From NCBI RefSeq assembly GCF_000025965.1, contig NC_006513.1, positions 2,480,001-2,544,000 on the forward strand: a DNA stretch of 64,000 nucleotides, given 5' to 3'. Shown here in pieces: positions 37,335 through 64,000 of this stretch. Source of the stretch: Aromatoleum aromaticum EbN1 (GTDB taxonomy: Bacteria; Pseudomonadota; Gammaproteobacteria; Burkholderiales; Rhodocyclaceae). Numbering within the stretch: position 1 is the stretch's first letter; every line of letters begins with the position of its first letter. A program made the translations under genes and the position numbers. The notes below the pieces were generated by a model that made no database searches, was not told the DNA's origin, and saw nothing but the letters and a program-made list of their open reading frames with translations.

Positions 37335-37338
37335 CGCG

Positions 37339-42831: not shown

Positions 42832-43118
42832 GTGAAGCGCACGACGCGAATGCAGTTTCGCCCATCATGGCCGAAGCGGTGCCAGCTGTGTGCATCGTCG
42901 GTCCGATGCCGCCACCGTCAGGGGGCATGGCAAACCAGTGCGAGCAACTCGTGCGGCTGCTGAGACGCGACGGCGTCAAGGTCGAACTTGTGTGCAACAA
43001 TGCACGACCCTACCCCCCATGGGTCGGGAGCGTTCCGGTCGTGCGTGCCGCTTGTCGGCTGTTTCCGTATCTTGCCCAGCTCTGGTTGTCGGCAGGGCGC
43101 GTCGAGGTCGTGCACGTC
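42828..43118 (+). pseudogene. Glycosyltransferase, 5' fragment (interrupted by IS)
   Basis: This is the N-terminal 97 codons of a GT-B glycosyltransferase: CIVGPMPPPSGGMANQCEQLVRLL and ARPYPPWVG are typical opening segments. The frame continues a few codons into the insertion element and stops at a TGA overlapping the transposase ATG. It would therefore produce only a truncated protein. The 3' part is at 44671-45501. Confidence 0.9.
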
Positions 43119-43136
43119 CTAGCAGCGTGTCGGACT
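43119..43136 (+). repeat. Left terminal inverted repeat of the IS, including CTAG
   Basis: CTAGCAGCGTGTCGGACT is the exact reverse complement of the right end at 44654-44671. Confidence 0.93.
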
Positions 43137-43177
43137 ATCCCCTGTAAAATGACGCGTCGCCCCTGGAACCCGAGAGC

Positions 43178-44536
43178 ATGAGCCGCTTCCGCCCGATCGA
43201 TCGCCAAACGGACTACCTGCTACCACCGTCGGTGCAGGACTGGCTGCCCGAATCGCACTTGGCGCGCTACGTGGTCGATGTGGTGGAAGGGCTGGACCTG
43301 TCGGCATTGGAGCGCGCCTACGCGGGTCGCGGTAGCGATGCCTACCACCCGGCGCTGCTGCTGTCGCTGCTGATCTACGGCTACGCGACGGGAACCCATT
43401 CGAGCCGCAAGATCGAGCGGGCCACGTACGACTCGCTGGCCTTCCGCTTCATCGCGTGCGACCAGCATCCGGACCACGACACGCTGGCGACGTTCCGCCG
43501 CCGTTTCGGCGATCAGTTCGCCGATGCCTTCGTGCAGGTGCTGCAAGTCGCCCGCGAGAACCAGCTCTCGCGCTTTGGCACCGTGAGCCTGGACGGTACC
43601 AAGATCCACGCCAACGCCAGCCGACACAGCGCGCTCTCGTATGGGCACGCCGAGAAGATCGAGGCCCAGCTCAAGGCCGAAGTGCAGGAGATGCTCGCGC
43701 TGGCCGAAGCGGCCGATCGGAGCTGCGTGCCCGAGGGCGTGGATCTGCCCGCGGAGATCCAGCGCCGAGAAGACCGGCTGGCCGCCATCGCGGCCGCCAA
43801 GGCCAAGATCGAAGCGCGCGCCAAGGAGCGCTTCGAGCGCGAACAGGCCGAGTTTGATGCCAAGCTGGCCAAGCGTCAGGCCAAGGCGGCGGCCACCGGC
43901 AAGAAGCCCGGCGGCAAGCCGCCGACCCCGCCTGCCCCCGGTCCGCGCGCGGACGACCAGCTCAATCTGACCGACGAAGACTCGCGCATCATGAAAGTGA
44001 CCGGCGGCGGCTTCGAGCAGTGCTACAACGCGCAGGCGCTGGTCGATACGGAGTCGATGCTGGTGATGGTGCCCCACCTCACCCAGGCGGGCAACGACAA
44101 GGAGCAGGTCGAGCCGATGCTGGCCCGCATCGCGGCCCTGCCCGAAGGGCTCAATCAGCCCGACCAACTGCTGGCCGACACCGGTTTCTTCAGCGAGCGC
44201 AACGTCGAGCGCTGCCAGGCCGCCGGGATCGAACCGCTGATCGCGGTCGGGCGCGACGAGCACCATCCGGATTGGCGCCGCCGCTTCGAAGAGCCCGCCC
44301 CGCTCGAGCAGCCCGCCAGCCCCGTCGAACAGATGAAGCACGCCCTCAAGACCCGGGCCGGCCGCGCCGCCTACGCGCTCCGGAAACAGACCGTGGAACC
44401 GGTGTTCGGCATCATCAAGTCGGTGATGGGATTTCGCCAGTTCCTGCTGCGCGGGCTCGACAACGTGCGCGCCGAGTGGACCCTGGTGTGCTTGGCGTGG
44501 AACTTGAAGCGCATGGCCGTATTGCGTCCGCAGTGA
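43178..44536 (+). CDS. IS1182-family DDE transposase
   Basis: The 452-residue protein opens with a conserved N-terminal DNA-binding domain (YLLPPSVQDWLPESHLARY; HPALLLSLLIYGYATG) and has the DDE catalytic core: VSLDGTKIHANAS (first Asp), LLADTGFFSERN (second Asp) and QTVEPVFGIIKSVMGFRQF (Glu). A Lys/Ala-rich coiled insertion lies around residues 200-260. It appears full-length and potentially active. Confidence 0.95.
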   Translation: MSRFRPIDRQTDYLLPPSVQDWLPESHLARYVVDVVEGLDLSALERAYAGRGSDAYHPALLLSLLIYGYATGTHSSRKIERATYDSLAFRFIACDQHPDHDTLATFRRRFGDQFADAFVQVLQVARENQLSRFGTVSLDGTKIHANASRHSALSYGHAEKIEAQLKAEVQEMLALAEAADRSCVPEGVDLPAEIQRREDRLAAIAAAKAKIEARAKERFEREQAEFDAKLAKRQAKAAATGKKPGGKPPTPPAPGPRADDQLNLTDEDSRIMKVTGGGFEQCYNAQALVDTESMLVMVPHLTQAGNDKEQVEPMLARIAALPEGLNQPDQLLADTGFFSERNVERCQAAGIEPLIAVGRDEHHPDWRRRFEEPAPLEQPASPVEQMKHALKTRAGRAAYALRKQTVEPVFGIIKSVMGFRQFLLRGLDNVRAEWTLVCLAWNLKRMAVLRPQ

Positions 44537-44653
44537 GAAAAAAGGACAGGGGCATTGCGATTTCGGACAGGAAACCGCTGATTGGAACCTGAAATGCCGA
44601 CCGTTTCTCACATTGTGAAATCAAGCCCCCGGATACAGCGCCGGCGGTGCTCA

Positions 44654-44671
44654 AGTCCGACACGCTGCTAG
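44654..44671 (-). repeat. Right terminal inverted repeat of the IS, including CTAG
   Basis: AGTCCGACACGCTGCTAG mirrors the left end perfectly over 18 bases. Confidence 0.93.
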
Positions 44672-45501
44672 CCAATTCCGGCTGGGCCTGGCATCTGTTT
44701 GCCGCTCCCGCCATCTGGATCGCACGTGCCCGTGGCGTTGGGGTGATCGTCAATTACCGGGGCGGCAATGCCGACGCTTTCTTTGCCCGTGCGCCTGCCC
44801 ATGTGCTCGCCACCCTGCGCAAGGCGAGTGCGCGGGTCACACCATCGGGATTCCTGCAACGCGTATTCGCCCGCTACGGGCTCGATGCAACGATCGTCCC
44901 CAACATCGTGGACCTCGCCCGCTTTCGTCCGGTGACGCGACCCCCTTTCGGTCATGCGCCCCATCTCGTAGTCACCCGGAATCTGGAGGCGATCTACGAC
45001 ATTCCCACGGCTATCCGCGCGTTCGCCGTCGTGCGTGAGGCGTTCCCGAATGCGCGGCTCACCGTCGCCGGAAGTGGTCCGGAGCTTGGCCGGCTGCAGG
45101 CGGTCGTCGGCGAACTCGGCCTCGATGGCAGCGTGCATTTCAGCGGCCGCCTCGACAACAGCGAGATTCCAGCGCTTTATGCTGCGGCTGATTGCATGCT
45201 GAATCCGAGCACCGTGGACAACATGCCGATCTCGATCCTCGAAGCCTTCGCCAGCGGCGTGCCGGTCGTGACTACCCGTGCGGGCGGCATTCCGGACATG
45301 GTCGAGGACGGCGTCTCGGCCCTGCTGGTGCCGGTCGGTGACGCCTCGTCGATGGCTAGACAGGCCGTTCGCGTGCTTGCCGACCCCGTATTGGCCGGTT
45401 CGCTGCGTGCGGCAGGGCTCGAGGCTGCAGCTGCGTTTGCATGGCCGGCCGTCCGCGAGCAATGGCTCGAGGTTTATCGATTCGTGGCCACCCTCAAATA
45501 A
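44671..45501 (+). pseudogene. Glycosyltransferase, 3' fragment (interrupted by IS)
   Basis: This is the remainder of the broken gene, starting in frame with ANSGWAWHLFAAPAIWIARARG and ending at 45501. It contains the GT4 nucleotide-sugar site (ILEAFASGVPVVTTRAGGIPDMVEDG) and VAGSGPELGRLQ. A GTG in the IS end at 44647 could start translation of a fragment lacking the acceptor half. Joined to 42828-43118 it gives a 374-residue protein of normal length. Confidence 0.9.
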
Positions 45502-45528: not shown

Positions 45529-46863
45529 ATGCGTGATTTGCTCTTACTGCTGATCGTGGTCCCCGGCGGCTTGCTTGCGCTTCGGCATCCCTTCGTCGGC
45601 GCGATGATGTGGACCTGGATCAGCATCATGAACCCTCACCGTCTGACCTGGAGCTTCATGCACGACGCTCCGGTCGCGATGTTCATCGGCGTATGTACCC
45701 TGATCGGCCTGCTGTCGTCGAAGGAAAAACGCAGTCCCTTCATTGGCGCGCCCGTCTACTGGCTCGTTGTCCTGGTGGGCTGGATGTTTGTCACGACCAT
45801 CTTCGCGTTCGATACCGCGGCGAGCATGAAGCAACTCGTAAAGGTGCTGAAGATCGACCTGATGGTGTTGGTCACGCTGATGCTTGTCCGGACCAAGCGC
45901 GAGATGATCGTCTTTGCCTGGATTCTCGCGCTGTCGGTGGCGTTCTACGGCATCAAGGGGGGCATCTATACCTTGCTCCAAGGGGGGGAAGGGAGGGTTT
46001 ACGGACCCGAGGGGACCTACATCGAGGATAACAACTCCCTGGCCGTGGCGTTGATCGTTACCGTGCCGCTGCTTCGCTTCTTGCAAACGACGCTCGAGAA
46101 AACATGGCAGAAATACGCGATGACAGGCGCTATCCTGATCTGCGGGGTAGCCATTCTCGGTTCGCATTCGCGGGGCGGTTTCCTAGCCATTTCGGCGATG
46201 CTCGCCGTGCTTTGGTGGCGCGGAAAGAACAAGCTGGCGACGGGTCTTATCATGTTGACCGTTGGCGCCGCGGCACTTTCGTTCATGCCTCCCGAGTGGT
46301 GGACGCGGATGGAAACGATCGGGACGCATGAGGATCGTTCCGCAATGGGGCGCATCAACGCCTGGACAATGGCATTCAACATTGCAAAAGATAATTTCTT
46401 CGGAGGTGGATACAGTATTTACAACCCGTGGGTTTACAGCGTCTATGCGCCCGATCCGACCTATATCGTCTCGGCGCACAGCATCTACTTCCACATGCTG
46501 GGCGAGCATGGATTCGGCGGACTTTTGATCTACCTTTGCCTATGGCTGACGACCTGGACGACTGCCGGATGGCTGCGTAAGCATGGGCGCAAGCAGACCG
46601 AAACGGAGTGGTGTGCTCAATTCGGTTCAATGTTGCAGGTATCGCTCGTCGGCTTCGCCGTGGGAGGTGCCTTTCTCAGTCTTTCGTACTTCGATCTGCC
46701 CTACAATCTGATGGCCCTTGCAGTCGCAGCACGCTTCTGGGTGCAGTCTCGCGCATGGGAGACCGAGCCGGCGTTTGAACCCCACGGACGGATCTTCGGA
46801 GTGCCCTTGTTCGTTGGCGACCGGCTGGGGCCACCGCGCCGGTCAACGTTTCAGCAGGCGTAG
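45529..46863 (+). CDS. Exosortase-A-associated O-antigen ligase / polymerase-like protein
   Basis: The 444-residue integral membrane protein has ~ten helices and a large periplasmic loop, the layout of Wzy/WaaL-type enzymes that join glycan repeats or transfer glycan to an acceptor. Landmarks are WTWISIMNPHRLTW, a middle HSRGGFLAISAM (the conserved R-GG of ligases) and AHSIYFHMLGEHGFGG. It matches the putative O-glycosylation ligase of exosortase-A loci. GAGGAGCAACTGAA precedes the ATG. It ends overlapping (by 21 bases) a gene on the opposite strand. Confidence 0.9.
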   Translation: MRDLLLLLIVVPGGLLALRHPFVGAMMWTWISIMNPHRLTWSFMHDAPVAMFIGVCTLIGLLSSKEKRSPFIGAPVYWLVVLVGWMFVTTIFAFDTAASMKQLVKVLKIDLMVLVTLMLVRTKREMIVFAWILALSVAFYGIKGGIYTLLQGGEGRVYGPEGTYIEDNNSLAVALIVTVPLLRFLQTTLEKTWQKYAMTGAILICGVAILGSHSRGGFLAISAMLAVLWWRGKNKLATGLIMLTVGAAALSFMPPEWWTRMETIGTHEDRSAMGRINAWTMAFNIAKDNFFGGGYSIYNPWVYSVYAPDPTYIVSAHSIYFHMLGEHGFGGLLIYLCLWLTTWTTAGWLRKHGRKQTETEWCAQFGSMLQVSLVGFAVGGAFLSLSYFDLPYNLMALAVAARFWVQSRAWETEPAFEPHGRIFGVPLFVGDRLGPPRRSTFQQA

Positions 46864-48072
46864 CGCGTAGTTCCTCAGATCGGCGAGCATTGGACCGGGG
46901 TCGCGATGATCCCACAGGTAATAGCGCGCTTCGGGCCGCAGGAAATCCCGCGCGAAGCGCCAAAGTTCGTGGCCCGGCCGAATGCAGAAAAACGGATCCT
47001 GGATCTTTCCCGGCTGAAACAGAATGCGCATGAGCCGTTTAATCTCGCTGATGACCATTCGGCAGCGCAGTTCCTCGTTCAGAGGTGGAAGAGCCGGGCG
47101 TATCCCCTGCCCCTGCAGTTGATAAGCGAGACGGGCGAAACCCGCCCCGGCATGCACCGCAAGAGGAAAACTTCCCCAGAATCGGCCATTGATTTCCATC
47201 AGCGCAGCTTCGCCGGTCGCATCATCGAGGCGGTACTCCACCATTGCGCAGCCTTCCCATCCGACGGCCCGCAACAGCGCAATGGAGCGTTCCTGGAGGT
47301 CCTGGTGCTGCGATAGGGACAATGCATCGCAGACGCTGGAAAAACCACCCTCCGGCGGCCACTCGGCGATTCGCAGGTGCTGGAAGCGCCTCACGGCCTG
47401 ACCGCCGTGCATGAAGAAGAATTGCCCCAGACCCCGGCCGGGCCAATACTCCTGGATCAGCGGCCAGATTTGCGCCGGTACGAAACGCTCGCCGATACGC
47501 CCGAGCGCCGCCTCGTCCGCAGCAAACTCCAGCTTCTGCAGTGATAATCCGTGCTTGTGCAGGCGTGGCATGGCGGCGATCGGGTCCGCCCATTTGACGA
47601 CCGCCGGATAGCGCATGGCAGTACAGGCTTCGCGCCAGGACGTGAGCGAGGTCGGCGCATGGGTTCGCGGCACGCGAATGCCGACCGTTTCCGCGAGCTT
47701 CAGCGTCTGCGCCTTGTCGAGCACACGGCGGAAGACGTCCGCCTCGGGTGCGATCACCTTCACCGACCCTAATGCCTCGCGGTGGGTAATCAGCCATGTA
47801 AGGTCGGCTTCCGAGATCGCGAGCAGGATCGCGCTGCCATACTCGTCGCCGAGTTCGCGAATACGCCGCACCAGCGCATCGTCACGCGCCGGGCCGACAA
47901 CAACGCCGCGCGCCAGGTAACGGGACGCGAGGCCGATCGAGCGACTGCGGTTCGCGAGGCCGACGACGCGTACACCGGCACGGCCGAGTTCGCGAATCAC
48001 GCCGACGCCGATCTGTGTGTCGATGCCGAGCACGAAGCACGGCGGCGATGCCGGGTTTGCCTGGCCGTTCAT
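46843..48072 (-). CDS. ATP-grasp family carboxylate-amine/thiol ligase (first)
   Basis: The 409-residue protein has the ATP-grasp layout: N-terminal pre-grasp Rossmann region (VLGIDTQIGVGVIRELGRAG), central RYPAVVKWADPI lysine strand, and the metal-binding end with MVEYRLDDATGEAALMEINGRFWGS (Glu and Asn ligands). ATP-grasp enzymes form an acyl-phosphate and couple it to an amine or thiol; the substrate here is unknown. It is the most downstream gene of the minus-strand cassette, and a second ATP-grasp protein lies at 61157-62326. Confidence 0.88.
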   Translation of the reverse strand: MNGQANPASPPCFVLGIDTQIGVGVIRELGRAGVRVVGLANRSRSIGLASRYLARGVVVGPARDDALVRRIRELGDEYGSAILLAISEADLTWLITHREALGSVKVIAPEADVFRRVLDKAQTLKLAETVGIRVPRTHAPTSLTSWREACTAMRYPAVVKWADPIAAMPRLHKHGLSLQKLEFAADEAALGRIGERFVPAQIWPLIQEYWPGRGLGQFFFMHGGQAVRRFQHLRIAEWPPEGGFSSVCDALSLSQHQDLQERSIALLRAVGWEGCAMVEYRLDDATGEAALMEINGRFWGSFPLAVHAGAGFARLAYQLQGQGIRPALPPLNEELRCRMVISEIKRLMRILFQPGKIQDPFFCIRPGHELWRFARDFLRPEARYYLWDHRDPGPMLADLRNYALRLLKR

Positions 48073-49051: not shown

Positions 49052-49641
49052 CGGCGAATGCTCGGGCTGTTGCCGAGTTCCAGTTCGTTCACCAGATTGC
49101 GCACCGCTGGCAGCAGGATGGCGAAGCAACTGCGATAGTAGTCCTCGGAAAGCGTGTCGGGATCGTGGATGTGATAACGGATCGGTCGCGCCCAATGCCC
49201 CAGCAGCGCGATGCGCGCGGCCGGAATGCCGTGGCTGACCAGGCGATGCGCATGGCGCAACTCCATCACCAGCAGCAGATCGTCGTCGCGCGGGCAGTAA
49301 TCGGAGATGTCGGTGGCGGCGTGATGCTCGAGCGACAGACCGAATTCCCGCGCCACCATGCGTGCCGTCTCGGTCGCAGGAGCGCCGGTGGTCGTCGACA
49401 GGCCGATCGAGATGCAGTCCACCGGTTCGCGGGCAGCGACTGCGTGGGCGAACGCACTGCGATTGATGTTTCCCAGGCAGACGAACACGAGCCGCCCGAC
49501 CTTGCGAGGGTCCACGGAACGGAACCGATTGCGCGCGCCGACGATGCCTTCGAGTTGACCCAGCAGATAGCGCATCCAGCCGCGATGGGTGCCGTGGTTG
49601 GTCTCGATCAGTCGCAGCGTACGCGCGAATACCGAACTCAC
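49048..49641 (-). CDS. Low-molecular-weight tyrosine phosphatase-like protein with N-terminal extension
   Basis: The 197-residue protein contains the LMW-PTP active-site loop VCLGNINRSA (Cys55, Arg61) and the general-acid segment HDPDTL (Asp160). The family norm is ~150 residues with the active Cys near residue 10; here ~50 extra residues precede it. In capsule systems such enzymes (Wzb) dephosphorylate the BY-kinase. The cassette context suggests this, but the kinase is 24 kb away on the other strand. GTG 49641 overlaps the upstream stop (GTGA). Confidence 0.85.
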   Translation of the reverse strand: MSSVFARTLRLIETNHGTHRGWMRYLLGQLEGIVGARNRFRSVDPRKVGRLVFVCLGNINRSAFAHAVAAREPVDCISIGLSTTTGAPATETARMVAREFGLSLEHHAATDISDYCPRDDDLLLVMELRHAHRLVSHGIPAARIALLGHWARPIRYHIHDPDTLSEDYYRSCFAILLPAVRNLVNELELGNSPSIRR

Positions 49642-51467
49642 AAACGATACTCCGGCGCGTGCTCGCGCAGCCACAGCTCCAGCATCTGCAGGATCCACAC
49701 CATTTCGCCGTAATAGCCCGGATGGGCTGGCAGGAGGTTCGTGAGGAGGTCGTCGATGAATGCGCCGCGGACGATGCCGCGCTGCTTGAGCGTTTCCAGC
49801 GAATCCCGCGCCATGCTCCGCAAGCCGGCATGCTGCGAGGCCCATACACCGAACGGAAGGCCGAAGCCGTGCTTTTTCTTCGCGATGATCTCGTCGGGCA
49901 GGAAGCCGCGCAGGGCTTCCTTGAAGAACCAGCGCAGGGTCAACCCCTTGAGCTTCCACTCGGCGGGCAGAGTCAGCGAGAACTCGAGCAACTCGTCTGA
50001 CAGCAGCGGAAATGCGACCTCCACCCCTGCGAGTGCGGTCGAACCCAGCACCTTGGACAGATCATTATCGGCCAGCGTGTATTTCCAGTCGAAGGCCAGC
50101 ATCCGGTTCACCAGCGGCTGCCCGGCGGTTTCCGCCCATACCGTGCGCTGCGCTGCCAGCGGCGCCTCCTGCTGTACGAGGCCGAGGAAATCGGCCGTCA
50201 ACACATGCGTCGGCCCCAGCCGCAGCAGCAGGTTGTACATGCCCATGCGGTCGGGCAGGGGGACGCGGGCCTGGCTCACGTAGCTGGCCGCCTTCTTCAC
50301 CACCGGCACACGATCCATCCCTCGCAAGCCCAGCATCGGCTCCAGCATCGATGAGCGCAGCACACCCGGCACAGCGTCGTAGAAGCCGAAAATGCGCTGC
50401 TTTGCGTAGCGCGAATTGCCGCCGAAGAGTTCGTCGCCACCGTCGCCGGCGAGCATGCGGGTGATGCCATCGTTGCGCGCGTTGCGGGCACACAGCCAGC
50501 TCGGCACCACCGAGGAGTTGCCGAAGGGTTCGTCGTAATATGCCGCGACCTTCGGGATGCCCTCGATCAGGTCGTCCGGGGTTACGTAGTACTCGTGGTG
50601 ATCCGTGCCGAAGTGCTTCGCCGCGATCCGCGCGTAGGCCATCTCGTCGTAGCCGGCGGCGTCGAAGCCGATCGAATAGGTCGGCGCCGGCCGGCCAAGT
50701 ACCCTGCACAACATGCCGGACACTGTCGAGCTATCGGTACCGCCCGAGAGAAAGGCCCCCGGCTGGCCGTCCGAGGTTTCGCGTGCGACCGCCGATTCGA
50801 CGATCTCGAGAAAGCGCAGCTTGCCCGCCTCCAGATCCAGTGACCGGTCCGGGGCAAAGCGGGGCGTCCAGTAGCGCTCGCTGCGTGCCTTTCCGTCACG
50901 CCAGTGCAGGACGTGACCGGGCAGCAGTCGTTCGACGCCGGCGAACACCGTTCTCGGCGCTGGAATCATGTGGAAATAGAGGTAATCGAACAGGGCCTGG
51001 GTGTCGAGCGCTTTGGCCACGACCGGCACTTCGTCCGCACGGGTCGCGAAGGCGAGCATTCCATCCTCGATCGCATGGCACAAGGGATGCGTGCCAAAGC
51101 GGTCCACCGCGAGCCACGCGGATCCTTCGCCGCCGTTCAGCACCACGACCGCGAACCGGCCTTTCGCCGCAGCCGGAGCGCGTGCCCCCCGCTCGCGAAA
51201 GGCGTCGAGCCAGGCCGCCGCTATGCCGGCGGTCGACGCGCGCTCATGGAGGGCGCCGGGCTCGAAGCGAGGGCTGCCGAGCGCCATGCAGACCAAGTCG
51301 CCTGCCCGATGAACGGCAACCCCGCCGTCGTGGGAGCAGAAGCCGCTGCGAAATTCGACCAGACCGGAGAGGCTGTTCGACCGACCCGCTCCATGCAAGG
51401 GTGCGTTGCGCGAAATGGCGCCTGTAATTCTGGCAAGCAAGCGTGGTCCCTCCACTTTGCGGTGCAT
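49638..51467 (-). CDS. Asparagine-synthase-like protein lacking the Cys nucleophile
   Basis: The 609-residue protein has an asparagine-synthetase layout: N-terminal Ntn-like half and C-terminal ATP-pyrophosphatase half with GAFLSGGTDSSTVSGM and MLAGDGGDELFGGNSRY. Where active family members begin MCGI, this one reads LARITGAIS, so the glutaminase Cys is missing. It may use free ammonia or another amine, as beta-lactam synthetase-like relatives do. Starts: ATG 51467 (weak ribosome-binding site) or TTG 51440, which has GGAGGG seven bases upstream and may be the true start; the Cys is absent either way. Confidence 0.85.
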   Translation of the reverse strand: MHRKVEGPRLLARITGAISRNAPLHGAGRSNSLSGLVEFRSGFCSHDGGVAVHRAGDLVCMALGSPRFEPGALHERASTAGIAAAWLDAFRERGARAPAAAKGRFAVVVLNGGEGSAWLAVDRFGTHPLCHAIEDGMLAFATRADEVPVVAKALDTQALFDYLYFHMIPAPRTVFAGVERLLPGHVLHWRDGKARSERYWTPRFAPDRSLDLEAGKLRFLEIVESAVARETSDGQPGAFLSGGTDSSTVSGMLCRVLGRPAPTYSIGFDAAGYDEMAYARIAAKHFGTDHHEYYVTPDDLIEGIPKVAAYYDEPFGNSSVVPSWLCARNARNDGITRMLAGDGGDELFGGNSRYAKQRIFGFYDAVPGVLRSSMLEPMLGLRGMDRVPVVKKAASYVSQARVPLPDRMGMYNLLLRLGPTHVLTADFLGLVQQEAPLAAQRTVWAETAGQPLVNRMLAFDWKYTLADNDLSKVLGSTALAGVEVAFPLLSDELLEFSLTLPAEWKLKGLTLRWFFKEALRGFLPDEIIAKKKHGFGLPFGVWASQHAGLRSMARDSLETLKQRGIVRGAFIDDLLTNLLPAHPGYYGEMVWILQMLELWLREHAPEYRL

Positions 51468-51686
51468 GTCACTGCTGATCCAGGGCCGGTTAATCATACC
51501 GCATCGGGGTTGCCGCTTGGCCGTCACGGAGTCGACGGCGCGGGAAAGAAAAACGTAACCGCCCTCGCAGCGGCCGCCATCGCCGGTGCGGGGCTGGTAG
51601 TATCGTCCGCGCTCGACGTCCGTTTACCCGATGTTCTCGGCTCGCTCGCTCGCGCGTGCGACCGCGATACAACAAAGGGGGCCGCT

Positions 51687-53255
51687 GTGGATTCCAATAG
51701 CCTTGCCGATCGCCCCGTCTGCTCGACGCTGGCCTCGAGCCCGCATTCCCAGGGCGCGCACCGAAGAAGGCCAGCAAAGTCATTGCGTCGCATTGCCGCG
51801 CTGTGCATCTGTCTCTCGCCCGCCGTCGGGTCAGCGGCCCTGACCTTGTCGGATGGCGCCGGAGGAATGACCTGCCGCCACTTCGCGACCGCCGCCAAGA
51901 TGGCGTGGCAGCAGGCCGGGGGTGACTGGGCCGACGCAACCGGCAAACCATACGGGGACAAGCCCTATGCGGCGGAAGACGTGCCGATGGCGCGAGGCCG
52001 CCAGAGCGTGTCATGGGACGTGACAGCCCTCGTGCGGGCTTGGCAAGATCATGTCGTGCCGCCCGGCGCAGTACTGTTGCGAGCGATTCCGGGGACGAAC
52101 CCGGGAGCAGTCAACTTCGACAGTCGTGAGAGCGAGGATGCGTCTGCCCGGCCTGAGCTCATCATCGAATGGGCGGGCGACACACGCACCCGATCGAACC
52201 CGCTGGCGGACACCCATTTGCCTTGCTCGACCCAAAAGAGCATCGGCGAGAAACCGGTTTTTCAGGTGAAAGGCGACACCAACGCGATCCTGGTCTTCCC
52301 CTTCGACGACAAGGATCGCCGCCCCATCGCGCGCGCGGAACTGCGGTTGAGCACCGGCAAGGTGTATCACCGCAGTACGTCGATCGGCGTCTACGGGCCG
52401 ACGCTGCCGGGCGGCAAGGGTGAGGCAACGCGACGAGGGATCGCCGGCGGATTCCCGCTCGACAAGGGAATTGAGCGCCACCCGGATGTGGTGTTCGCCG
52501 ACCGCTTCGAATCGCCCGACTGGATGACCCGCTGGCCGATCTACAGCAAGAACAGCACGACGGAGATCGTCGCCAGCGACGACGCCAACCGCTTCGAGCG
52601 CCTCGACGCCAGGGCCTTGAAAGTGACTGTTCCGAGAGGCAAGGTCCTCGGCCTGAACGCGCAATACCGGTTCGACCAACGCCCGGAGGGGGAGCCGGAG
52701 GCGATGTACTTCCGCTACTACCTTCGTTTTGGCGAAAACTGGAATCCCACCCTGCAGGGCGGCAAGCTGCCCGGATTCGCGGGCACCTATAATCGCGGAG
52801 GTTGGGGCGGGCGAAAGGCGAACGGCACCAATGGCTGGTCGGCGCGCGGTACCTTTTTTCGCCTGAGCGGCCGAAATTCCCTCTCTGGCGTCCATCGGAG
52901 CATCGGTTCCTACGTCTATCATGCCGATATGTCCCAGACCTATGGCAGTACCTGGGGCTGGAACCAGGGACCGACCGGCATGCTGGAAAAGAACCGCTGG
53001 TACAGCATCGAGCAGTACGTACGGATGAACACCCCGGGCAGGAATGACGGAGTGCTGCGCGCGTGGGTCGATGGCGAAGTTGCCTTCGAGAAAACCGACA
53101 TGCGCTATCGTGACGGGCTCGATCTGAAGATCGAGTCGCTATGGATGAACGTCTATCACGGCGGCACGACCCCGACCGCTCATGACCTGACGCTCTACAT
53201 CGATAATCTGGTGATCGCGCGGAATTACATTGGCCCCATGGAGCCGTCGCGTTAA
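51687..53255 (+). CDS. Secreted polysaccharide lyase-like protein (PL14-type C-terminus)
   Basis: The 522-residue protein has a late signal-like segment (LRRIAALCICLSPAVGSAAL, ~35-53). Two beta-rich modules follow that resemble DNRLRE domains (for example VSWDVTALVRAWQDH and NFDSRES, ~60-260). The C-terminal half (~300-520) resembles polysaccharide lyase family 14: YYLRFGENWNPTLQGGKLPGF, a tyrosine/tryptophan-rich groove (WNQGPTG, WYSIEQYV) and LYIDNLVIARNYIG. It may trim or turn over the exported polysaccharide. GTG 51687 follows AAAGGGGGCCGCT. It is the only plus-strand gene in this cassette. Confidence 0.72.
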   Translation: MDSNSLADRPVCSTLASSPHSQGAHRRRPAKSLRRIAALCICLSPAVGSAALTLSDGAGGMTCRHFATAAKMAWQQAGGDWADATGKPYGDKPYAAEDVPMARGRQSVSWDVTALVRAWQDHVVPPGAVLLRAIPGTNPGAVNFDSRESEDASARPELIIEWAGDTRTRSNPLADTHLPCSTQKSIGEKPVFQVKGDTNAILVFPFDDKDRRPIARAELRLSTGKVYHRSTSIGVYGPTLPGGKGEATRRGIAGGFPLDKGIERHPDVVFADRFESPDWMTRWPIYSKNSTTEIVASDDANRFERLDARALKVTVPRGKVLGLNAQYRFDQRPEGEPEAMYFRYYLRFGENWNPTLQGGKLPGFAGTYNRGGWGGRKANGTNGWSARGTFFRLSGRNSLSGVHRSIGSYVYHADMSQTYGSTWGWNQGPTGMLEKNRWYSIEQYVRMNTPGRNDGVLRAWVDGEVAFEKTDMRYRDGLDLKIESLWMNVYHGGTTPTAHDLTLYIDNLVIARNYIGPMEPSR

Positions 53256-58129: not shown

Positions 58130-59380
58130 TCACGTCAGGATCTCGATAATCTCGGGGTGGCCGAGGAAACCAGTTGGACTCGCACTTGCGCCATATGCGC
58201 CCGACTGATGTATCACCACCAGGTCGCCGGGCTGCACTTGCGGCAGATTTATCTTTTCTCCAAGCAGATCCAGCGGCGTGCATAGCGGTCCCACAACTGA
58301 ATAGTTCTCCGTTGCCGCATCACCCATACGATTGCCGATGGCGACCGGGTAATTCTTACGGATTACCTGGCCGAAGTTCCCGCTTGCTGACAGATGGTGA
58401 TGCAGCCCGCCGTCGGTCACGAGGTAAGTGTGACCGCGCGACACCTTCTTGTCGATAACCCGGCACACGTAGATGCCGGCTTCGCCGACCAGGTAGCGGC
58501 CGAGTTCGATGACGAGCTGCGCTTGTGGCAGTTTGCGCGCCGCTTCGGCGACGAGGGCAGCGAGGTTGTCGCCAATCGGAGCAAGTTCGAGCCGTTGTTC
58601 GCCGGGGAAGTAGGGGATGCCGAAGCCGCCACCGAGATTCAGGAACTTCACCGGCGCCGGAGCGTGCTCAGCGAGGCGCAGGGCGAGTTCGAAGCTTTTC
58701 CGCTGCGCCTCGACGATGGCCTCGGCCTTCAGATTCTGCGAACCGGCGAAAAGGTGGAAGCCCTCGAAAGCGAGACCGGCGCGGCCGATTTCAGCCAGCA
58801 GTTGCGGCACCTGTTCGGCATCGACACCGAACTGCTTAGGGCCGCCGCCCATCTTCATGCCTGAGCTTTTCAGCTCGAAATCGGGGTTCACGCGCACGGC
58901 GACTCGCGCTGGCAGGCCAAGCGCCACGGAGGCGGCGACGAGCGGGGCGATCTCCCGAAAGGATTCGAGGTTCACCAAGATGCCTGCCGCCACAGACTGC
59001 TGAAGTTCGGCGTCCTGCTTGCCGGGGCCGGCGAAGCTGATTTCCCCAGGATCGGCACCGGCGTCGAGTGCCACCTTCAATTCGCCGGCGGAGGCGACGT
59101 CAATGCCATCGACCAGCTTCGCCATGTGGCACACCAAGGCCGGCATTGGGTTGGCCTTCATCGCGTAGTGCAGTCTCACTTCGCGCGGCAGCGCGGTGCG
59201 CAGTTCCGACACCCGTTGCGTCAGCAGGCCGCGGTCGTAAGCGTAGAACGGCGTGCGGCCGACGCGCGCAGCAAGACGCGTGAGCGAGATTCCGCCGACG
59301 ACGAGTTCGCCCTTGGCCACGGAGAACTGCGTCATCGGGGCGTGGGTGGGAGGTGCCTTGACAGTGACGGAGTTGCTCAT
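58130..59380 (-). CDS. Exosortase-A-associated PLP-dependent decarboxylase (fold III)
   Basis: The 416-residue protein is a fold-III (alanine-racemase/DapDC-like) decarboxylase. The PLP Lys is in LHYAMKANP (Lys75), with GIDVASAGEL, HLFAGSQNL and GGGFGIPY phosphate-binding segments and a C-terminal GPLCTPLDLL. The acidic residue normally following Cys (CESxD in DapDC, CDGxD in ornithine decarboxylase) is Thr here, so it probably does not recognise a distal amino group. Its neighbours (ligase, ATP-grasp, ACP) suggest a carrier-bound amino acid substrate. ATG 59380 is chosen; an upstream ATG is possible. Confidence 0.9.
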   Translation of the reverse strand: MSNSVTVKAPPTHAPMTQFSVAKGELVVGGISLTRLAARVGRTPFYAYDRGLLTQRVSELRTALPREVRLHYAMKANPMPALVCHMAKLVDGIDVASAGELKVALDAGADPGEISFAGPGKQDAELQQSVAAGILVNLESFREIAPLVAASVALGLPARVAVRVNPDFELKSSGMKMGGGPKQFGVDAEQVPQLLAEIGRAGLAFEGFHLFAGSQNLKAEAIVEAQRKSFELALRLAEHAPAPVKFLNLGGGFGIPYFPGEQRLELAPIGDNLAALVAEAARKLPQAQLVIELGRYLVGEAGIYVCRVIDKKVSRGHTYLVTDGGLHHHLSASGNFGQVIRKNYPVAIGNRMGDAATENYSVVGPLCTPLDLLGEKINLPQVQPGDLVVIHQSGAYGASASPTGFLGHPEIIEILT

Positions 59381-59435
59381 TGCCCGATGGTCATCCATGT
59401 TGTGCTGGAGCTTGCTGCAATAACAACACAAAAGG

Positions 59436-61016
59436 CTATATCGTGCTTGCCAGCGCCTTGCGGTCGATCTTTCCATTCAGGTTGCGCGGCAGCGGGGCTT
59501 CGCGCACCTCTATGCAGGCGGGCACCATATATCCCGGCATGCGCGCACGACACTCAGCCAGCAGCGCAGCAGGGTCGAGTGTGCCCCCGACCGGTGGCGT
59601 GACGATCAGGACGATAGTCTGGCCGAGGGTGTCGTCGGCCACGCCGAAGGCGGCGCATTCGCCGACAAGCGTCGTGGCGTAGACAATTTCCTCCACTTCG
59701 GTCGGGCTGACGCGATAGCCGGAAGTCTTGATCATCTCGTCACGGCGGCCGATGAAGTATAGGAAGCCTTCCTCGTCGCGGCGCACGTTGTCGCCCGAGA
59801 ACACGGCGATCTCAGGTAGCACCAAGCCACCCTGGCGTCCGGGAGCGTGGGCGGGAAGGGGCCTGAAACGTTCTGCGGTCTTTTCCGGATCGTTCCAGTA
59901 GCCCATCGCGACCAGCGCTCCGCGCTGCACCAGTTCACCGGGCTCGTTCGGCGCACATTCGTTGCCGTCTTCGCGCAGCACGAATACGTCGGAGTTGGGG
60001 ATGGCCTTGCCGATCGAATCCGGGCGACGATCGACCTCTTCGGGCGGCAGATACGTGGCGCGGAAGGCTTCGGTGAGACCGTACATCAGGTACGGCTCGG
60101 CCCGCGGCAGCATCGAGCGCAGTCTGCTGAGCGTTTCCATCGGCATCCGTCCGCCGGTATTCGCGAAGTAGCGCAAGTGCTCGCCAACGGTTTCGGGCCA
60201 CTGCAGCTGTGACAACTGGATCCACAGCGGCGGCACGACGGTAAGACCGGTGATCCGTTCCTTCTCGAGCGCTCTCAATACGTCGCGCGGCATCAGATAG
60301 TTCAACAGCACGACCCGCGCCCCGACGTGGAAAGCGGTTGTGAGCTGCGAGAAGCCGGCATCGAAAGACAGTGGCAGCGCGGCGAGCAGCGTGTCACCGG
60401 AATGGTTTTTCAGGTAGCCGGCGACGCTCTTCGCGCCTGCGACCATATTCCGGTGGGACAGCACTACGCCTTTTGGGCGGCCCGTGCTGCCGGAGGTGTA
60501 CAGAATGGCCGCCATGTCGGAATCGATCACGCGGTGACCGGGGGCCGTCGGCGCGCTGAGCATGTCCTGCCAGCGATGCATCGAGGCGCCCGGCAAGACC
60601 GGCAGTTCGGCCGATGTTCCGGTGAGTACGACGTGGCGCAGGTCGTGACACGTCGCGAGCGTGTCCTTGAGGGCGGCAAAGCGCTCCGGCGAAGTCACCA
60701 GCACGCGCACATTGCAGTCCTGCAGGATGTAGCCGACCTGCTCGGCCTTGAGGATCGGGTTTACCGGGACGAACACGCCACCCGCCAACGACGACCCGAA
60801 GAACGCTGTGACGGTTTCGAGGCGCTTATCGAGATAGATGCCGACGCGTTCGGAGCGGGCGAGGCCGAGCCCGCTCAGGCCGGCGGCGAATGCGATGACG
60901 TCCTCGGAGAGGCCGGAATAGTTGTGGGTGCGGCCCGTGAACGTGAGTGCCCCGGCGTCGGGGGAGCGCTCGGCTGAGGCGAAGATGAGCCGGTGAAGAA
61001 GTTCGGTGGAAGTCAT
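59436..61016 (-). CDS. Exosortase-A-associated acyl-CoA/ACP ligase (AMP-forming)
   Basis: The 526-residue ANL-superfamily enzyme shows the P-loop ILYTSGSTGRPKGVVLSH, motif A5 YLMYGLTEAF, A7/A8 RDEMIKTSGYRVSPTEVEEI and the catalytic Lys segment LPRNLNGKIDRKAL. It adenylates a carboxylate and transfers it to CoA or to the carrier protein nearby. It lies between the decarboxylase and the ATP-grasp gene, and matches the acyl-CoA ligase subfamily of exosortase-A loci. Substrate unknown. ATG 61016 has no strong ribosome-binding site. Confidence 0.92.
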   Translation of the reverse strand: MTSTELLHRLIFASAERSPDAGALTFTGRTHNYSGLSEDVIAFAAGLSGLGLARSERVGIYLDKRLETVTAFFGSSLAGGVFVPVNPILKAEQVGYILQDCNVRVLVTSPERFAALKDTLATCHDLRHVVLTGTSAELPVLPGASMHRWQDMLSAPTAPGHRVIDSDMAAILYTSGSTGRPKGVVLSHRNMVAGAKSVAGYLKNHSGDTLLAALPLSFDAGFSQLTTAFHVGARVVLLNYLMPRDVLRALEKERITGLTVVPPLWIQLSQLQWPETVGEHLRYFANTGGRMPMETLSRLRSMLPRAEPYLMYGLTEAFRATYLPPEEVDRRPDSIGKAIPNSDVFVLREDGNECAPNEPGELVQRGALVAMGYWNDPEKTAERFRPLPAHAPGRQGGLVLPEIAVFSGDNVRRDEEGFLYFIGRRDEMIKTSGYRVSPTEVEEIVYATTLVGECAAFGVADDTLGQTIVLIVTPPVGGTLDPAALLAECRARMPGYMVPACIEVREAPLPRNLNGKIDRKALASTI

Positions 61017-61156
61017 TCTGTATGGGCTATCGGCATCGGCAATCGCATGGGATGGCATAAGTCTAACCGAAAGCACATAACGGTCGCCTTACGGGTGAAG
61101 GGAGCGCGTGACAAGCAGCTAACGTGGGGAATCGTCCCAGCGCGTCGACTCCCACA

Positions 61157-62326
61157 TCAGGCCTTACCCGTGATGAGCCGGCTGGCCTTGCGGGCGGCTC
61201 GCCCCGGCAGGTTATTCGCGAAGCGGCGGAGCGCTCCCAAGAACGGGCCGAGGTCTCGCAGGTCATAGTAGACACCCTGAATCCGATGCCCCAGCAATTT
61301 GGCGGGCGCGTTCTGCATCAACCAGGGGATCGCACCGGGGTCGCGCTCGCCGTTGATCCACAGATGGCTCGTCCTTTGCGCAGCCGGCGGCAGTGGCTCT
61401 CCGGTTACGGCGCAGTACTCGATAAGCGGCAGGTTGACGCCGTTGGCCACGCACAGCCCGACCCAGAAATCCGTTCGGCCTACCGTCGGCTCGATCACCC
61501 ATTGGCGACCTTCCCTGTCCCGCTTGAGTTCGAGTGATACCGGGCCGGACAGCTTGAGCCCTTCGAAGAATTGTCGAGCCAGTCCATAGACTTCGTCGCT
61601 CGGTTCGGGGACGGCAATCGTCGTATGCCCCATGGGGCGCGATCGCAACTTGCGGCCTTCGAAGCGGGCGAGCACGCGCCCTGCGTCCAGATACAACGCG
61701 CCAAAACGGATATGCGTGTCGTCCCCCGGGATGAATTCCTGAACGATCACCGGCATGCTCTGCTCCATGCGCCAGCGTGCCGCGACGAAGGCCTCCAAGG
61801 AGTCCGCTACCTGCGTCTTGAACGCCGATACCGGGCGGGTCGGTTTGGCGATTACCGGGAACTGCAGCGTCGTCAGACGATCTCGGGCTTCGTCGAGATT
61901 CGTTATTAGCAACGACTTCGGGTAGTGCAGCCCGACCTCGAGGCAGCGTGCCTCGATGCGGTCCTTTCCGAGAAGTGGGACCAGAATTTCGGCTGCGTGC
62001 GCCCAGCTTAACCGAAACCGGCGGGAAACGGCGTCCGCATGCCGTCCAACCACCTCGACCATACGGTCATTGGTCAGAAACAGTACCGGTTTTCCGGTGT
62101 TTTGCTCGGGAATTTCGAGTTGCAACAGGTTTTCGATGAGCCCCTCGCCATTTATGTCGGGCACAATGCGTATCTCGGCGCAACAAGTGCCTACGCCAGG
62201 GAGCGCGGCATTTGCCTCCAGTGCGAGCACACGTATGCCCGCCTGACAAAGCGATCGCGCAATACCTAGACCGTGGGCACACAAGCCCACGACGACGGCG
62301 TGCTGGGGGGCAGTCGGGCTCGGCAT
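61157..62326 (-). CDS. ATP-grasp family ligase (second, next to the ACP)
   Basis: The 389-residue protein shows VVVGLCAHGLGIARSLCQAG at the N-terminus, a central PVIAKPTRPVSAFKTQV lysine strand, QEFIPGDDTHIRFGALY, and the metal-site region SLELKRDREGRQWVIEPTVGR (Glu ligands). It is divergent from the acyl carrier protein gene, 114 bases apart. By analogy to BtrJ it could load an amino acid onto that carrier; this is an inference from layout only. Confidence 0.88.
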   Translation of the reverse strand: MPSPTAPQHAVVVGLCAHGLGIARSLCQAGIRVLALEANAALPGVGTCCAEIRIVPDINGEGLIENLLQLEIPEQNTGKPVLFLTNDRMVEVVGRHADAVSRRFRLSWAHAAEILVPLLGKDRIEARCLEVGLHYPKSLLITNLDEARDRLTTLQFPVIAKPTRPVSAFKTQVADSLEAFVAARWRMEQSMPVIVQEFIPGDDTHIRFGALYLDAGRVLARFEGRKLRSRPMGHTTIAVPEPSDEVYGLARQFFEGLKLSGPVSLELKRDREGRQWVIEPTVGRTDFWVGLCVANGVNLPLIEYCAVTGEPLPPAAQRTSHLWINGERDPGAIPWLMQNAPAKLLGHRIQGVYYDLRDLGPFLGALRRFANNLPGRAARKASRLITGKA

Positions 62327-62440
62327 GCTGGAGATCCAAAAGTATGTTCGCTATATTCTGTCACGAGAGCGACGAACGCACTTATTTTATGATTCTTGCA
62401 GAAACGGGGGGTGTAACAACACCGCCCATTCAGGGAGCAG
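62327..62440. promoter_or_regulatory. Divergent promoter region between ATP-grasp and ACP genes
   Basis: The 114-base AT-rich gap includes a TATGAT (62388-62393) that could be a -10 for the ACP side, but no matching -35 is seen. It must drive both transcripts. Confidence 0.3.
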
Positions 62441-62692
62441 ATGTTGGACATTCACGCAGAAGTTCTTGCCATTCTCGATGAAATTCTGAGCCTGCAAGGA
62501 CGTGCGGCCGGCATGACGGCCGACACGCCCCTGCTTGGCGCCGTGCCCGAACTCGATTCGATGGCCGTGGTCGGTGTGATCGGCGCGATCGAAGAGCGCT
62601 TCGACATCATTTTCGATGATGACGAAATCGACGGCCAAACCTTCGCCAGCGTTGGTTCGCTGGTCGAGGCGGTCAGCGCCAAGCTCACCTAA
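62441..62692 (+). CDS. Acyl carrier protein, exosortase-A-associated
   Basis: The 83-residue four-helix carrier has the phosphopantetheine serine in ELDSMAVVGVIGAIEERF (Ser40) and the acidic helix II and III residues of ACPs. It can hold an acyl or aminoacyl group as a thioester. AGGGAGCAG precedes the ATG. It is followed by the two hydrolases and divergent from the ATP-grasp ligase, making a compact carrier-centred module. Confidence 0.93.
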   Translation: MLDIHAEVLAILDEILSLQGRAAGMTADTPLLGAVPELDSMAVVGVIGAIEERFDIIFDDDEIDGQTFASVGSLVEAVSAKLT

Positions 62693-62699
62693 ACTGTCC

Positions 62700-63530
62700 A
62701 TGTCGCCGAAACTGCACGCCTTCCATCTGCACGCACCGCACGGATTCCGATTCTGCGTCAGCAGGACGCCGGTAGCAGAGCGACCGCGCCATGGAGTGAT
62801 CATCCATGTACCTGCTTTCGCGGAGGAGATGAACAAGGGGCGGCACATGGTCGCGCTGCAGGCGGACGCTTGGGCTCAGGAGGGGTGGACCGTGCTGCAG
62901 ATCGATCTCGGCGGTTGCGGCGACAGCGAGGGCGATTTTGCGGCGGCAAGCTGGGATAGCTGGCTTGAGGACGTTCGCATCGCCCACGCATGGGGGACGG
63001 AGCAGGCGTGCGGACCGGTCTGGCTGTGGGGCCTGCGGCTCGGTGCACTGTTGGCTAGCGAGGCCGCGGCTCGTTATCGGCTCGAGTGCGGCTTGCTGCT
63101 TTGGCAGCCGGTAACGAGCGGCAAACAGCATCTCCAGCAGTTCCTGCGCCTGTGGAAAATGGCGCAGGTCATTGGCAAGGCAGGGGGAGACGACAAGCCG
63201 CCGCACGAGCGCCTGGCCGCAGGCGAAACGGTCGAGGTCGGCGGCTATGAAATCGCTCCAGCCCTGGCCCAGGGCATCGACGCTGCCCAACTCGCGGCGG
63301 TCGCGCCCCTTCACGGCGTGCATTGGTTCCAGGTGGGCCCTGCATGGGCGGCGACGCCCTCTCCGGCCTTCGAGCGTCTACGAGCCCAATGGGACGCGGC
63401 CGGGATTGAAGTGCAATATCACGCCGTCGTTGGCCCGCTATTCTGGCAGACACAGGAAATCGAGCTCGCGCAAGAGTTACTCGACAGGTCGCGCAAGGTG
63501 CCGGATGTTTCGGAGTTTGCCCGCGCATGA
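62700..63530 (+). CDS. Exosortase-A-associated alpha/beta hydrolase 2
   Basis: The 276-residue protein has an alpha/beta-hydrolase layout with HVPAFAEEMNKGRHMV (oxyanion loop region), IDLGGCGDSEGDF and a nucleophile-elbow sequence LWGLRLGALLASEA. The elbow reads G-x-Arg-x-G instead of G-x-Ser-x-G, and the late His position reads GPLFWQ. It therefore lacks a visible Ser-His pair. Its family is always found near hydrolase 1 in exosortase-A loci, with unknown reaction. It overlaps hydrolase 1 by four bases. Confidence 0.85.
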   Translation: MSPKLHAFHLHAPHGFRFCVSRTPVAERPRHGVIIHVPAFAEEMNKGRHMVALQADAWAQEGWTVLQIDLGGCGDSEGDFAAASWDSWLEDVRIAHAWGTEQACGPVWLWGLRLGALLASEAAARYRLECGLLLWQPVTSGKQHLQQFLRLWKMAQVIGKAGGDDKPPHERLAAGETVEVGGYEIAPALAQGIDAAQLAAVAPLHGVHWFQVGPAWAATPSPAFERLRAQWDAAGIEVQYHAVVGPLFWQTQEIELAQELLDRSRKVPDVSEFARA

Positions 63531-64000
63531 CCTCCCGCGAAATCCCTTTGGTGTTTTCCTGCGGCTCTGAACCCCTGATCGGTGTGCTGCACATCCCGAA
63601 CCGGCCCGCTCGGCTGGGCGTTATCGTGATCGTCGGGGGGCCTCAATATCGGGTTGGCAGTCACAGACAGTTCCTGCTTCTCGCGCGGGAACTGGCATCT
63701 GGCGGCTTTGCCTGTCTGCGCTTCGACTATCGGGGAATGGGCGACAGCGCGAGCAACTTGTGTACCTTCGAGGATGTGGATGCCGACATACATGCAGCGA
63801 TCGATGCGCTCCTCGAGGCCTGTCCCGAGCTTGAAGGGGTGGTGCTGTGGGGACTGTGCGACGGCGCCTCCGCCGCATTGATGTACGCTCCGCTGGATGC
63901 CCGTGTCAAAGGTATCGTGGCGTTGAACCCATGGGTGCGCACAGACGCATCGCTGGCAACTGCCCGACTGAATCATCACTACAAGCGGCAGATCCTTTCT
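63527..64000 (+). CDS. Exosortase-A-associated alpha/beta hydrolase 1 (3' end beyond window)
   Basis: The first 158 codons of an alpha/beta hydrolase run off the window end. It shows VIVGGPQYRVGSHRQF, FDYRGMGDS, and a nucleophile elbow LWGLCDGASAAL (G-x-Cys-x-G, Cys in place of Ser). Overlapping start with hydrolase 2 (ATGA) implies one transcript. The thiol nucleophile would suit acyl transfer from a thioester carrier, an inference. Confidence 0.85.
   Translation, partial: MTSREIPLVFSCGSEPLIGVLHIPNRPARLGVIVIVGGPQYRVGSHRQFLLLARELASGGFACLRFDYRGMGDSASNLCTFEDVDADIHAAIDALLEACPELEGVVLWGLCDGASAALMYAPLDARVKGIVALNPWVRTDASLATARLNHHYKRQILS

Follow-up and report, generated by a model that had tools for sequence, protein, structure and literature searches.

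An exosortase A locus with a carrier protein

What is made on the acyl carrier protein (ACP) encoded beside a decarboxylase and a ligase in the exosortase A locus of Aromatoleum aromaticum EbN1? The window, that is, the whole stretch of 64,000 nucleotides analysed here (contig NC_006513.1, positions 2,480,001 to 2,544,000, from a 99.99% complete assembly whose 3 contigs total 4.73 Mb), carries near its end six genes on diverging strands, with an ATP-grasp enzyme, an AMP-forming ligase and a pyridoxal phosphate (PLP) decarboxylase on the minus strand and the ACP, hydrolase 2 and hydrolase 1 on the plus strand. Four of these genes exceed the curated cut-offs of TIGR03098, TIGR03099, TIGR03100 and TIGR03101, with scores far above chance; in NCBIfam these are hypothetical equivalogs described as “exosortase A system-associated”, families without a function. 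From the sequences and by analogy with natural product pathways, we consider it probable that the ligase, the decarboxylase and the ACP together make a beta-aminoacyl thioester on the carrier, with L-aspartate being converted into beta-alanyl-ACP, whose beta-alanyl group may then be passed to an acceptor. An earlier note on this DNA had placed the six genes here, which is borne out by profile matches to the four TIGR families and PF00550 and by the fold of the ATP-grasp model; all six are present, and its inclusion of the ATP-grasp enzyme in the conserved set did not hold.

A VinN-like pocket in the ligase

The ligase (59436-61076, minus strand; TIGR03098, 857 bits, cut-off 592) has adenylation domains of nonribosomal peptide synthetases as its best matches in the PDB, with VinN (3wvn) among the best, and when the pocket fragment was used as a query, VinN came first (130 bits). 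Both 3wv4 and 3wvn are structures of VinN, and the roles of its pocket residues, including that of Asp230 in holding the amino group, are described in the portion of PMC11253843 covered here. Over a VinN fragment of about 220 residues, the best 14 of the ligases listed by BLAST were 35-39% identical and the last ones about 24%. When a short ligase fragment served as the query, most of the matches were weak ones to repeat proteins, and no HitB alignment was obtained.

For the pocket, 107 ligases were aligned to VinN, and a separate tally was kept of 26 loci of the order that had been chosen by the decarboxylase, the window included. All 106 ligases that could be read at the equivalent of VinN Asp230 keep the Asp (the remaining one has a gap), position 299 carries Thr or Ser throughout (107/107), and the equivalent of Arg331 is Arg in 107/107 and in all 26 of the decarboxylase-chosen loci. 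The beta13-beta14 loop likewise has the length of that of VinN, with no gap relative to it, in 107/107 ligases. Because the ligase has this pocket and occurs in 28 of the 29 decarboxylase genomes, it is the likely loader of the ACP, and L-aspartate, activated through its beta-carboxyl, is therefore a more likely substrate than glutamate. The name fatty acyl-CoA ligase was rejected on the pocket residues, and the acyl-CoA ligase name of TIGR03098 looks misleading. Ligases were assigned to the canonical type or to a second type, represented by locus L061, according to which of the two gave the better BLAST match, and not by a tree.

A BtrK-like decarboxylase

The decarboxylase (58130-59380, minus strand; PLP fold III; TIGR03099, 672 bits, cut-off 478) has a reading frame open up to 59476, and we chose the start at 59380 because a longer version would overlap the ligase. 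Its best sequence match in the PDB is BtrK (7ru7/2j66, 271 bits), followed by 6knh (158 bits), which we take to be SbnH, and the best LysA-type protein (155 bits). At the cysteine, the family reads CTPLD in 80 of 89 rows (CNPTD in 4, other motifs in 2 and gaps in 3), compared with CTPED in BtrK, CTPKD in 6knh and CE[ST]GD in all four LysA-type proteins. The observation in the earlier note that the CTPLD motif lacks the acidic residue after the cysteine was thus confirmed against the four LysA-type proteins, and the missing residue would fit a substrate that is acylated at its far end. In a tree of 89 of the 90 rows (one piece of at most 250 amino acids was dropped), for which the LysA-type proteins just named served as the root, BtrK and 6knh group with the family.

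Judged by sequence, the decarboxylase is BtrK-like, of the CTPxD type and closer to BtrK than to LysA, and it is predicted to act on carrier-bound aspartate. The earlier proposal that an amino acid is decarboxylated while bound to the carrier finds its support in homology, with BtrK as the best PDB match and the CTPxD motif in common. An identity as LysA (diaminopimelate decarboxylase) was rejected, since the protein reaches 257 bits, short of the LysA cut-off of 298, and has the CTPLD motif; the genome also encodes a second member of the family that bears the motif of LysA.

Co-conservation and gene order

We surveyed 150 genomes of the order to which A. aromaticum belongs. The decarboxylase and XrtA were counted when over their own cut-offs; the threshold was E<=1e-110 for the ligase, which also exceeds its cut-off in 23 of the 29 genomes, and E<=1e-30 for the hydrolases. 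The decarboxylase and the ligase were each found in 29/150 genomes, and 28 of the 29 decarboxylase genomes have both (Fisher 4e-28). Hydrolase 1 was present in 22 genomes and hydrolase 2 in 23, and the hydrolase genomes have XrtA in 23/23 cases and the decarboxylase in 21/23. XrtA itself, which in the window is encoded in the same locus but outside the trio (31447-33003, plus strand; TIGR03109, 319.7 bits, over the curated cut-off), occurs in 40/150 genomes, 24 of which have the decarboxylase. FemAB (TIGR03019) is present in 23 of the 24 XrtA genomes with the decarboxylase and in 15 of the 16 without it; it goes with XrtA, and a tie to the ligase-decarboxylase module was rejected.

A second sample, the named loci, was selected with two peptide patterns, M[YF]GLTEAF and D[ED][MQ]IKT[SQ]G; it comprises the 80 best-scoring relatives of a single ligase (L061) out of at least 594 matched stretches, and its frequencies are not those of nature. 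Loci L065 and L061 are one contig, which enters the tallies of the ligase pocket and the decarboxylase motif twice; the counts may contain further duplicates between genomes and named records. The ligase is followed by the decarboxylase in 23/26 loci of the order and 52/59 named loci (both genes at 100 bits or more), the ACP by hydrolase 2 in 14/15 and 11/13, and hydrolase 2 by hydrolase 1 in 14/14 and 12/13. Ligase and ACP are divergent in 14/18 loci of the order and 11/24 named loci. The ACP of the window is a stand-alone protein of 83 amino acids (62441-62692, plus strand; PF00550) with an attachment serine in the motif ELDS, and this serine is kept in all 19 aligned ACPs, which come from 19 of 30 loci of the order.

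A compact set of ligase, decarboxylase and ACP also stands in five actinobacterial loci (L090, L108, L127, L141 and L144) and in Mesorhizobium (L113). The XrtA model (E<=1e-5; other exosortase kinds were not searched and genome completeness was not given) found no match in 13 of the 20 genomes reached through loci, among them those of the five actinobacterial loci, of Mesorhizobium and of four further actinobacteria. The trio can exist without XrtA. In L058, L059 and L060, from a genus without an XrtA match that keeps ligase, decarboxylase and ACP, the trio has as neighbours an aminotransferase and a protein that combines FGE-sulfatase, DinB and methyltransferase domains.

A proposed pathway and its transfer step

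In the proposed pathway, the ligase would adenylate the side-chain carboxyl of L-aspartate and load it onto the phosphopantetheine of the ACP, with the equivalent of VinN Asp230 holding the amino group and that of Arg331 the alpha-carboxylate, as homology and the pocket residues suggest. The decarboxylase would then strip the alpha-carboxyl on the ACP to give beta-alanyl-ACP, for which BtrK, VinO and AfcP are the precedents. More tentatively, hydrolase 1, by means of its conserved Cys, Asp and His and with hydrolase 2 as a partner, might remove the beta-alanyl group from the carrier. The acceptor would most likely be an amine or hydroxyl group on the exopolysaccharide that the same locus makes, or on its precursor.

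Hydrolase 1 starts at 63527 on the plus strand and runs past the window end (64000) to about 64438, an end taken from locus L032; its TIGR03100 score of 260 bits (cut-off 168) comes from the partial read. Its model has an alpha/beta-hydrolase fold (pLDDT 84.9), Cys111 stands at the nucleophile elbow in 27/27 aligned sequences, and at least 90% of them keep Asp224 and His258, which makes it perhaps an acyl transferase or a thioesterase. In a smaller residue count, 14 of 15 sequences were used, hydrolase 1 of L045 being cut by a contig end. SyrC and CmaE are aminoacyl transferases of the Cys-type alpha/beta-hydrolase kind that work with a carrier protein, and hydrolase 1, likewise a Cys enzyme with a carrier protein encoded next to it, may also act as a transferase. 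The likeness is one of description and not of sequence, and hydrolase 1 differs from them in that its nearest structures are esterases. Hydrolase 2 (62700-63530, plus strand, the start being our choice; TIGR03101, 386 bits, cut-off 203) belongs to the alpha/beta-hydrolase family and carries Arg at the place of the nucleophile (GLRLG) in 24/24 aligned sequences, so that it is likely a pseudo-enzyme partner.

In loci without the hydrolases, nearby GNAT-type transferases may perform the transfer. Homologues of GNAT-like genes, searched with eight seeds (five score above the GNAT or FemAB cut-off of Pfam, two fall short of it and one has no match), lie within 6 kb of 31/87 canonical ligases and of 0/20 ligases of the second (L061) type, and some are near aminotransferases of the amino-sugar type. 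As a lead only, these neighbours suggest N-acylation of an amino sugar. Our guess for the acceptor of the beta-alanyl group is a glycan amine, and we infer, as the earlier note did, that the glycan or a sorted protein is decorated. In a literature search on beta-alanyl groups in polysaccharides, the term was absent among the matches listed.

It is also conceivable, though we hold it to be rather a long shot, that the beta-alanyl group endows the exopolysaccharide or a lipid-linked precursor with a primary amine, which exosortase A would use as the nucleophile in joining PEP-CTERM proteins to the glycan. The 16 of 40 XrtA genomes without the decarboxylase would in that case need another amine. 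Joining through beta-alanine would be the bacterial counterpart of lipid anchoring by archaeosortase A, which involves a homologue of phosphatidylserine decarboxylase according to the part of PMC7157517 covered.

Alternative substrates and routes

The same chemistry might run on a different diacid, such as 3-methylaspartate, hydroxyaspartate or a similar compound, and would then yield a substituted beta-aminoacyl-ACP. We regard this as unlikely, although glutamate mutase, the enzyme that makes 3-methylaspartate, is linked to relatives of the ligase: its E subunit is encoded in 16 of the 80 named loci, and some mutase gene in 18. These genes accompany the second (L061) ligase type, and in G029 (L061) three mutase genes lie, by Pfam, between the ligase and the decarboxylase. 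In locus L067 (10001-21280, Rhodovibrionaceae), a mutase-linked ligase and decarboxylase stand directly beside a canonical set of ligase, decarboxylase, ACP and hydrolase, so that two modules occupy one place, which also speaks for another diacid. By sequence, the mutase linkage ties the wider ligase family to substrates of the aspartate type. The E subunit was, however, unmatched in 26 of the 29 decarboxylase genomes, that of the window included. Because no glutamate mutase match was found in this genome, 3-methylaspartate was rejected as its substrate in favour of aspartate, and the conversion of L-aspartate into beta-alanyl-ACP is our best guess here. In nine loci (L073, L075, L076, L077, L078, L080, L085, L087 and L091), which include Sulfurovum, Granulosicoccus and other relatives and some of which are short contigs, the mutase genes (MutS, MutE and MutL) lie upstream of a ligase relative and no decarboxylase was seen at E<=1e-3; these perhaps put the activated amino diacid to another use.

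A different order of steps, with decarboxylation of the free amino acid coming first and activation of its product by the ligase second, in the manner of IdnL3 and IdnL1 with beta-glutamate and 3-aminobutyrate, seems improbable to us. Such an order is described for incednine in the covered part of PMC11284099, but the equivalent of Arg331 in 107/107 ligases fits a substrate that still bears its carboxyl (the corresponding position of IdnL1 was not read), and the decarboxylase resembles BtrK.

The module might instead supply free beta-alanine for coenzyme A, with hydrolase 1 cleaving beta-alanyl-ACP and thereby replacing PanD. PanD (PF02261) has no match in this nearly complete assembly, and it is rarer in genomes with the decarboxylase (7/29) than in the others (71/121; Fisher 0.0009), as it also is within the XrtA genomes (7/24 with the decarboxylase vs 12/16 without; Fisher 0.009). 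When stratified by family, however, the anti-correlation is not significant (P 0.12); moreover, PanD and the decarboxylase occur together in 7 genomes, PanD is likewise missing from 50 of the 121 genomes in which the decarboxylase is absent, and a role in coenzyme A supply leaves unexplained why the hydrolases occur in the order only in XrtA genomes (23/23). We give this explanation little credence.

The remaining alternative concerns the ATP-grasp enzyme (61157-62326, minus strand), which has no Pfam match but whose AlphaFold2 model, built from 4 sequences and moderately confident (pLDDT 69.5), has an ATP-grasp fold. Homologues were found in 3/150 genomes (E<=1e-5, its own included), the other two being 31% and 26% identical, and were absent from 29/29 other loci of the order (tblastn, E<=1e-3). 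The 80 named loci hold one clear homologue, which is 38% identical and lies between the ACP and the ligase in Massilia arenosa L143. In butirosin biosynthesis, the ATP-grasp enzyme BtrJ loads glutamate on the ACP BtrI, and the earlier note had proposed a like step here; since the ATP-grasp gene is present in only 3/150 genomes, this step fails, and the enzyme was rejected as the loader on account of the rarity of its homologues, the ligase being the one that is co-conserved. It is very improbable that the ATP-grasp enzyme loads glutamate through the gamma-carboxyl, the decarboxylase makes a thioester of gamma-aminobutyrate and the ligase does something else, because, even though the decarboxylase is nearest to BtrK, the ATP-grasp gene adjoins the ACP gene and a homologue again stands between the ACP and ligase genes of Massilia arenosa L143, such homologues occur in 3 genomes against 29 for the decarboxylase, and the co-conserved activating enzyme, with an amino-acid pocket, is the ligase. 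The ATP-grasp gene is best read as a local, accessory addition.

Evidence weighing against beta-alanyl-ACP

Several observations weigh against the proposal that the trio makes beta-alanyl-ACP for transfer to an acceptor. In the ligase, VinN Lys330 is replaced by Phe in 106/107 sequences and by Leu in 1, and VinN Phe231, which mattered for binding 3-methylaspartate and L-aspartate (PMC11253843, in part), is replaced by Tyr in 62, Ala in 43 and His in 1, with 1 gap (n=107). One of the patterns used to pick the named loci includes the Phe at 330 and so biases them; Phe is also found in 26/26 of the decarboxylase-chosen loci of the order. Because Lys330 and Phe231 are not kept, our best reading of the sequence is that the ligase works like VinN, rather than being a VinN.

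With tblastn, an ACP turned up in no more than 19/30 loci of the order, in a search that covered loci and not whole genomes, and its membership in the conserved unit is less sure. As for co-conservation in exosortase A genomes, which the earlier note had preset as a refuting test, the outcome is mixed: 24 of the 29 decarboxylase genomes have XrtA, whereas 5/29 have no XrtA over the cut-off and 16/40 XrtA genomes lack the decarboxylase; the tie of the module to protein sorting is loose. Of the 18 mutase-linked ligase loci, 13 are without a decarboxylase at E<=1e-3 (5/18 have one), several of them being short contigs. The structures nearest to hydrolase 1 are those of ordinary esterases and lipases, and the transfer step could instead be hydrolysis; the PanD pattern also gives some support to the supply of coenzyme A. 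Finally, no test of any TIGR03098-03101 enzyme was seen in the literature searched.

Relation to known systems

Closer precedents than the Btr proteins are VinN/VinL/VinO and AfcQ/AfcK/AfcP. In the AFC-BC11 pathway of the Burkholderia cepacia complex, as described in the part of PMC12186527 covered, L-aspartate is loaded on a stand-alone carrier and alpha-decarboxylated there to beta-alanine. AfcQ, a VinN-type ligase, activates L-aspartate at the side-chain carboxyl and does not activate beta-alanine; its Arg311 corresponds to VinN Arg331 and is put by docking at the alpha-carboxylate, and semipure AfcP decarboxylates aspartate on the carrier AfcK in vitro. The module ligase shares this Arg equivalent, the likeness being drawn from that account and not from an alignment of AfcQ itself. 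The AFC-BC11 pathway differs in making a lipopeptide, and neither an exosortase nor a pair of Cys hydrolase and pseudo-hydrolase is described in that part of the source.

The trio logic is likewise that of vicenistatin (VinN, VinL and VinO), where the same chemistry acts on 3-methylaspartate, and of fluvirucin, where FlvN recognises aspartate (PMC11284099, in part); VinN is the top PDB match of the ligase pocket, and the same set is described for the ciromicin cluster (PMC10662134, in part). The vin system also has a glutamate mutase, which here is linked to the second ligase type. It differs in the Lys330 and Phe231 of VinN, which the module ligases do not keep, and both vicenistatin and fluvirucin use the product as a polyketide starter unit, whereas the genes studied here lie in an exopolysaccharide locus. 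Butirosin resembles the module in its ACP, in BtrK as the nearest relative of the decarboxylase and in the CTPxD motif, but differs in that the loader here is most likely the AMP-forming ligase, the ATP-grasp enzyme not being conserved.

In open-licence literature, searched by titles and the starts of abstracts with subscription journals mostly uncovered, no function is given to the TIGR03098-03101 families. The main text of Haft 2006 (PMC1569441) is without words beginning with decarboxylase, ligase, hydrolase, pyridoxal or carrier, and the parts of PMC9012009 and PMC2907700 covered do not treat the module genes. The chemistry would be of a known kind, and what would be new is its setting in exosortase and exopolysaccharide loci together with a Cys hydrolase and a pseudo-hydrolase. 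If the proposal is true, two of the four function-less exosortase A-associated families and their ACP would gain a function, the acyl-CoA ligase name of TIGR03098 would be corrected, and beta-alanine would be expected in the exopolysaccharide or the protein anchor of environmental Zoogloea, Dechloromonas and Nitrosomonas, all of which are among the named loci. It also suggests that the aspartate-loading carrier chemistry of natural products is used more widely in cell-surface polymers, including those of actinobacterial genomes without an XrtA match.

Other features of the locus

A second, different ATP-grasp enzyme is encoded at 46843-48072 of the same locus (ATPgrasp_Ter below and CPSase_L_D2 barely over the Pfam cut-off), and a gene 29% identical to it occurs in locus L100. 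The exopolysaccharide locus further contains three asparagine-synthase-like amidotransferases (34185-36113, 37078-39267 and 49638-51527), a relative of which (cluster c3, 19 members) often adjoins the decarboxylase in related loci. The product of 50904-53255 combines a polysaccharide lyase 14 domain with a weak match to a disaggregatase-type repeat. At 42774-45501, a gene for a family 4 glycosyltransferase is apparently interrupted by a DDE transposase (43178-44536), with a weak N-terminal glycosyltransferase match (below the Pfam cut-off) before the transposase and a strong C-terminal match after it.

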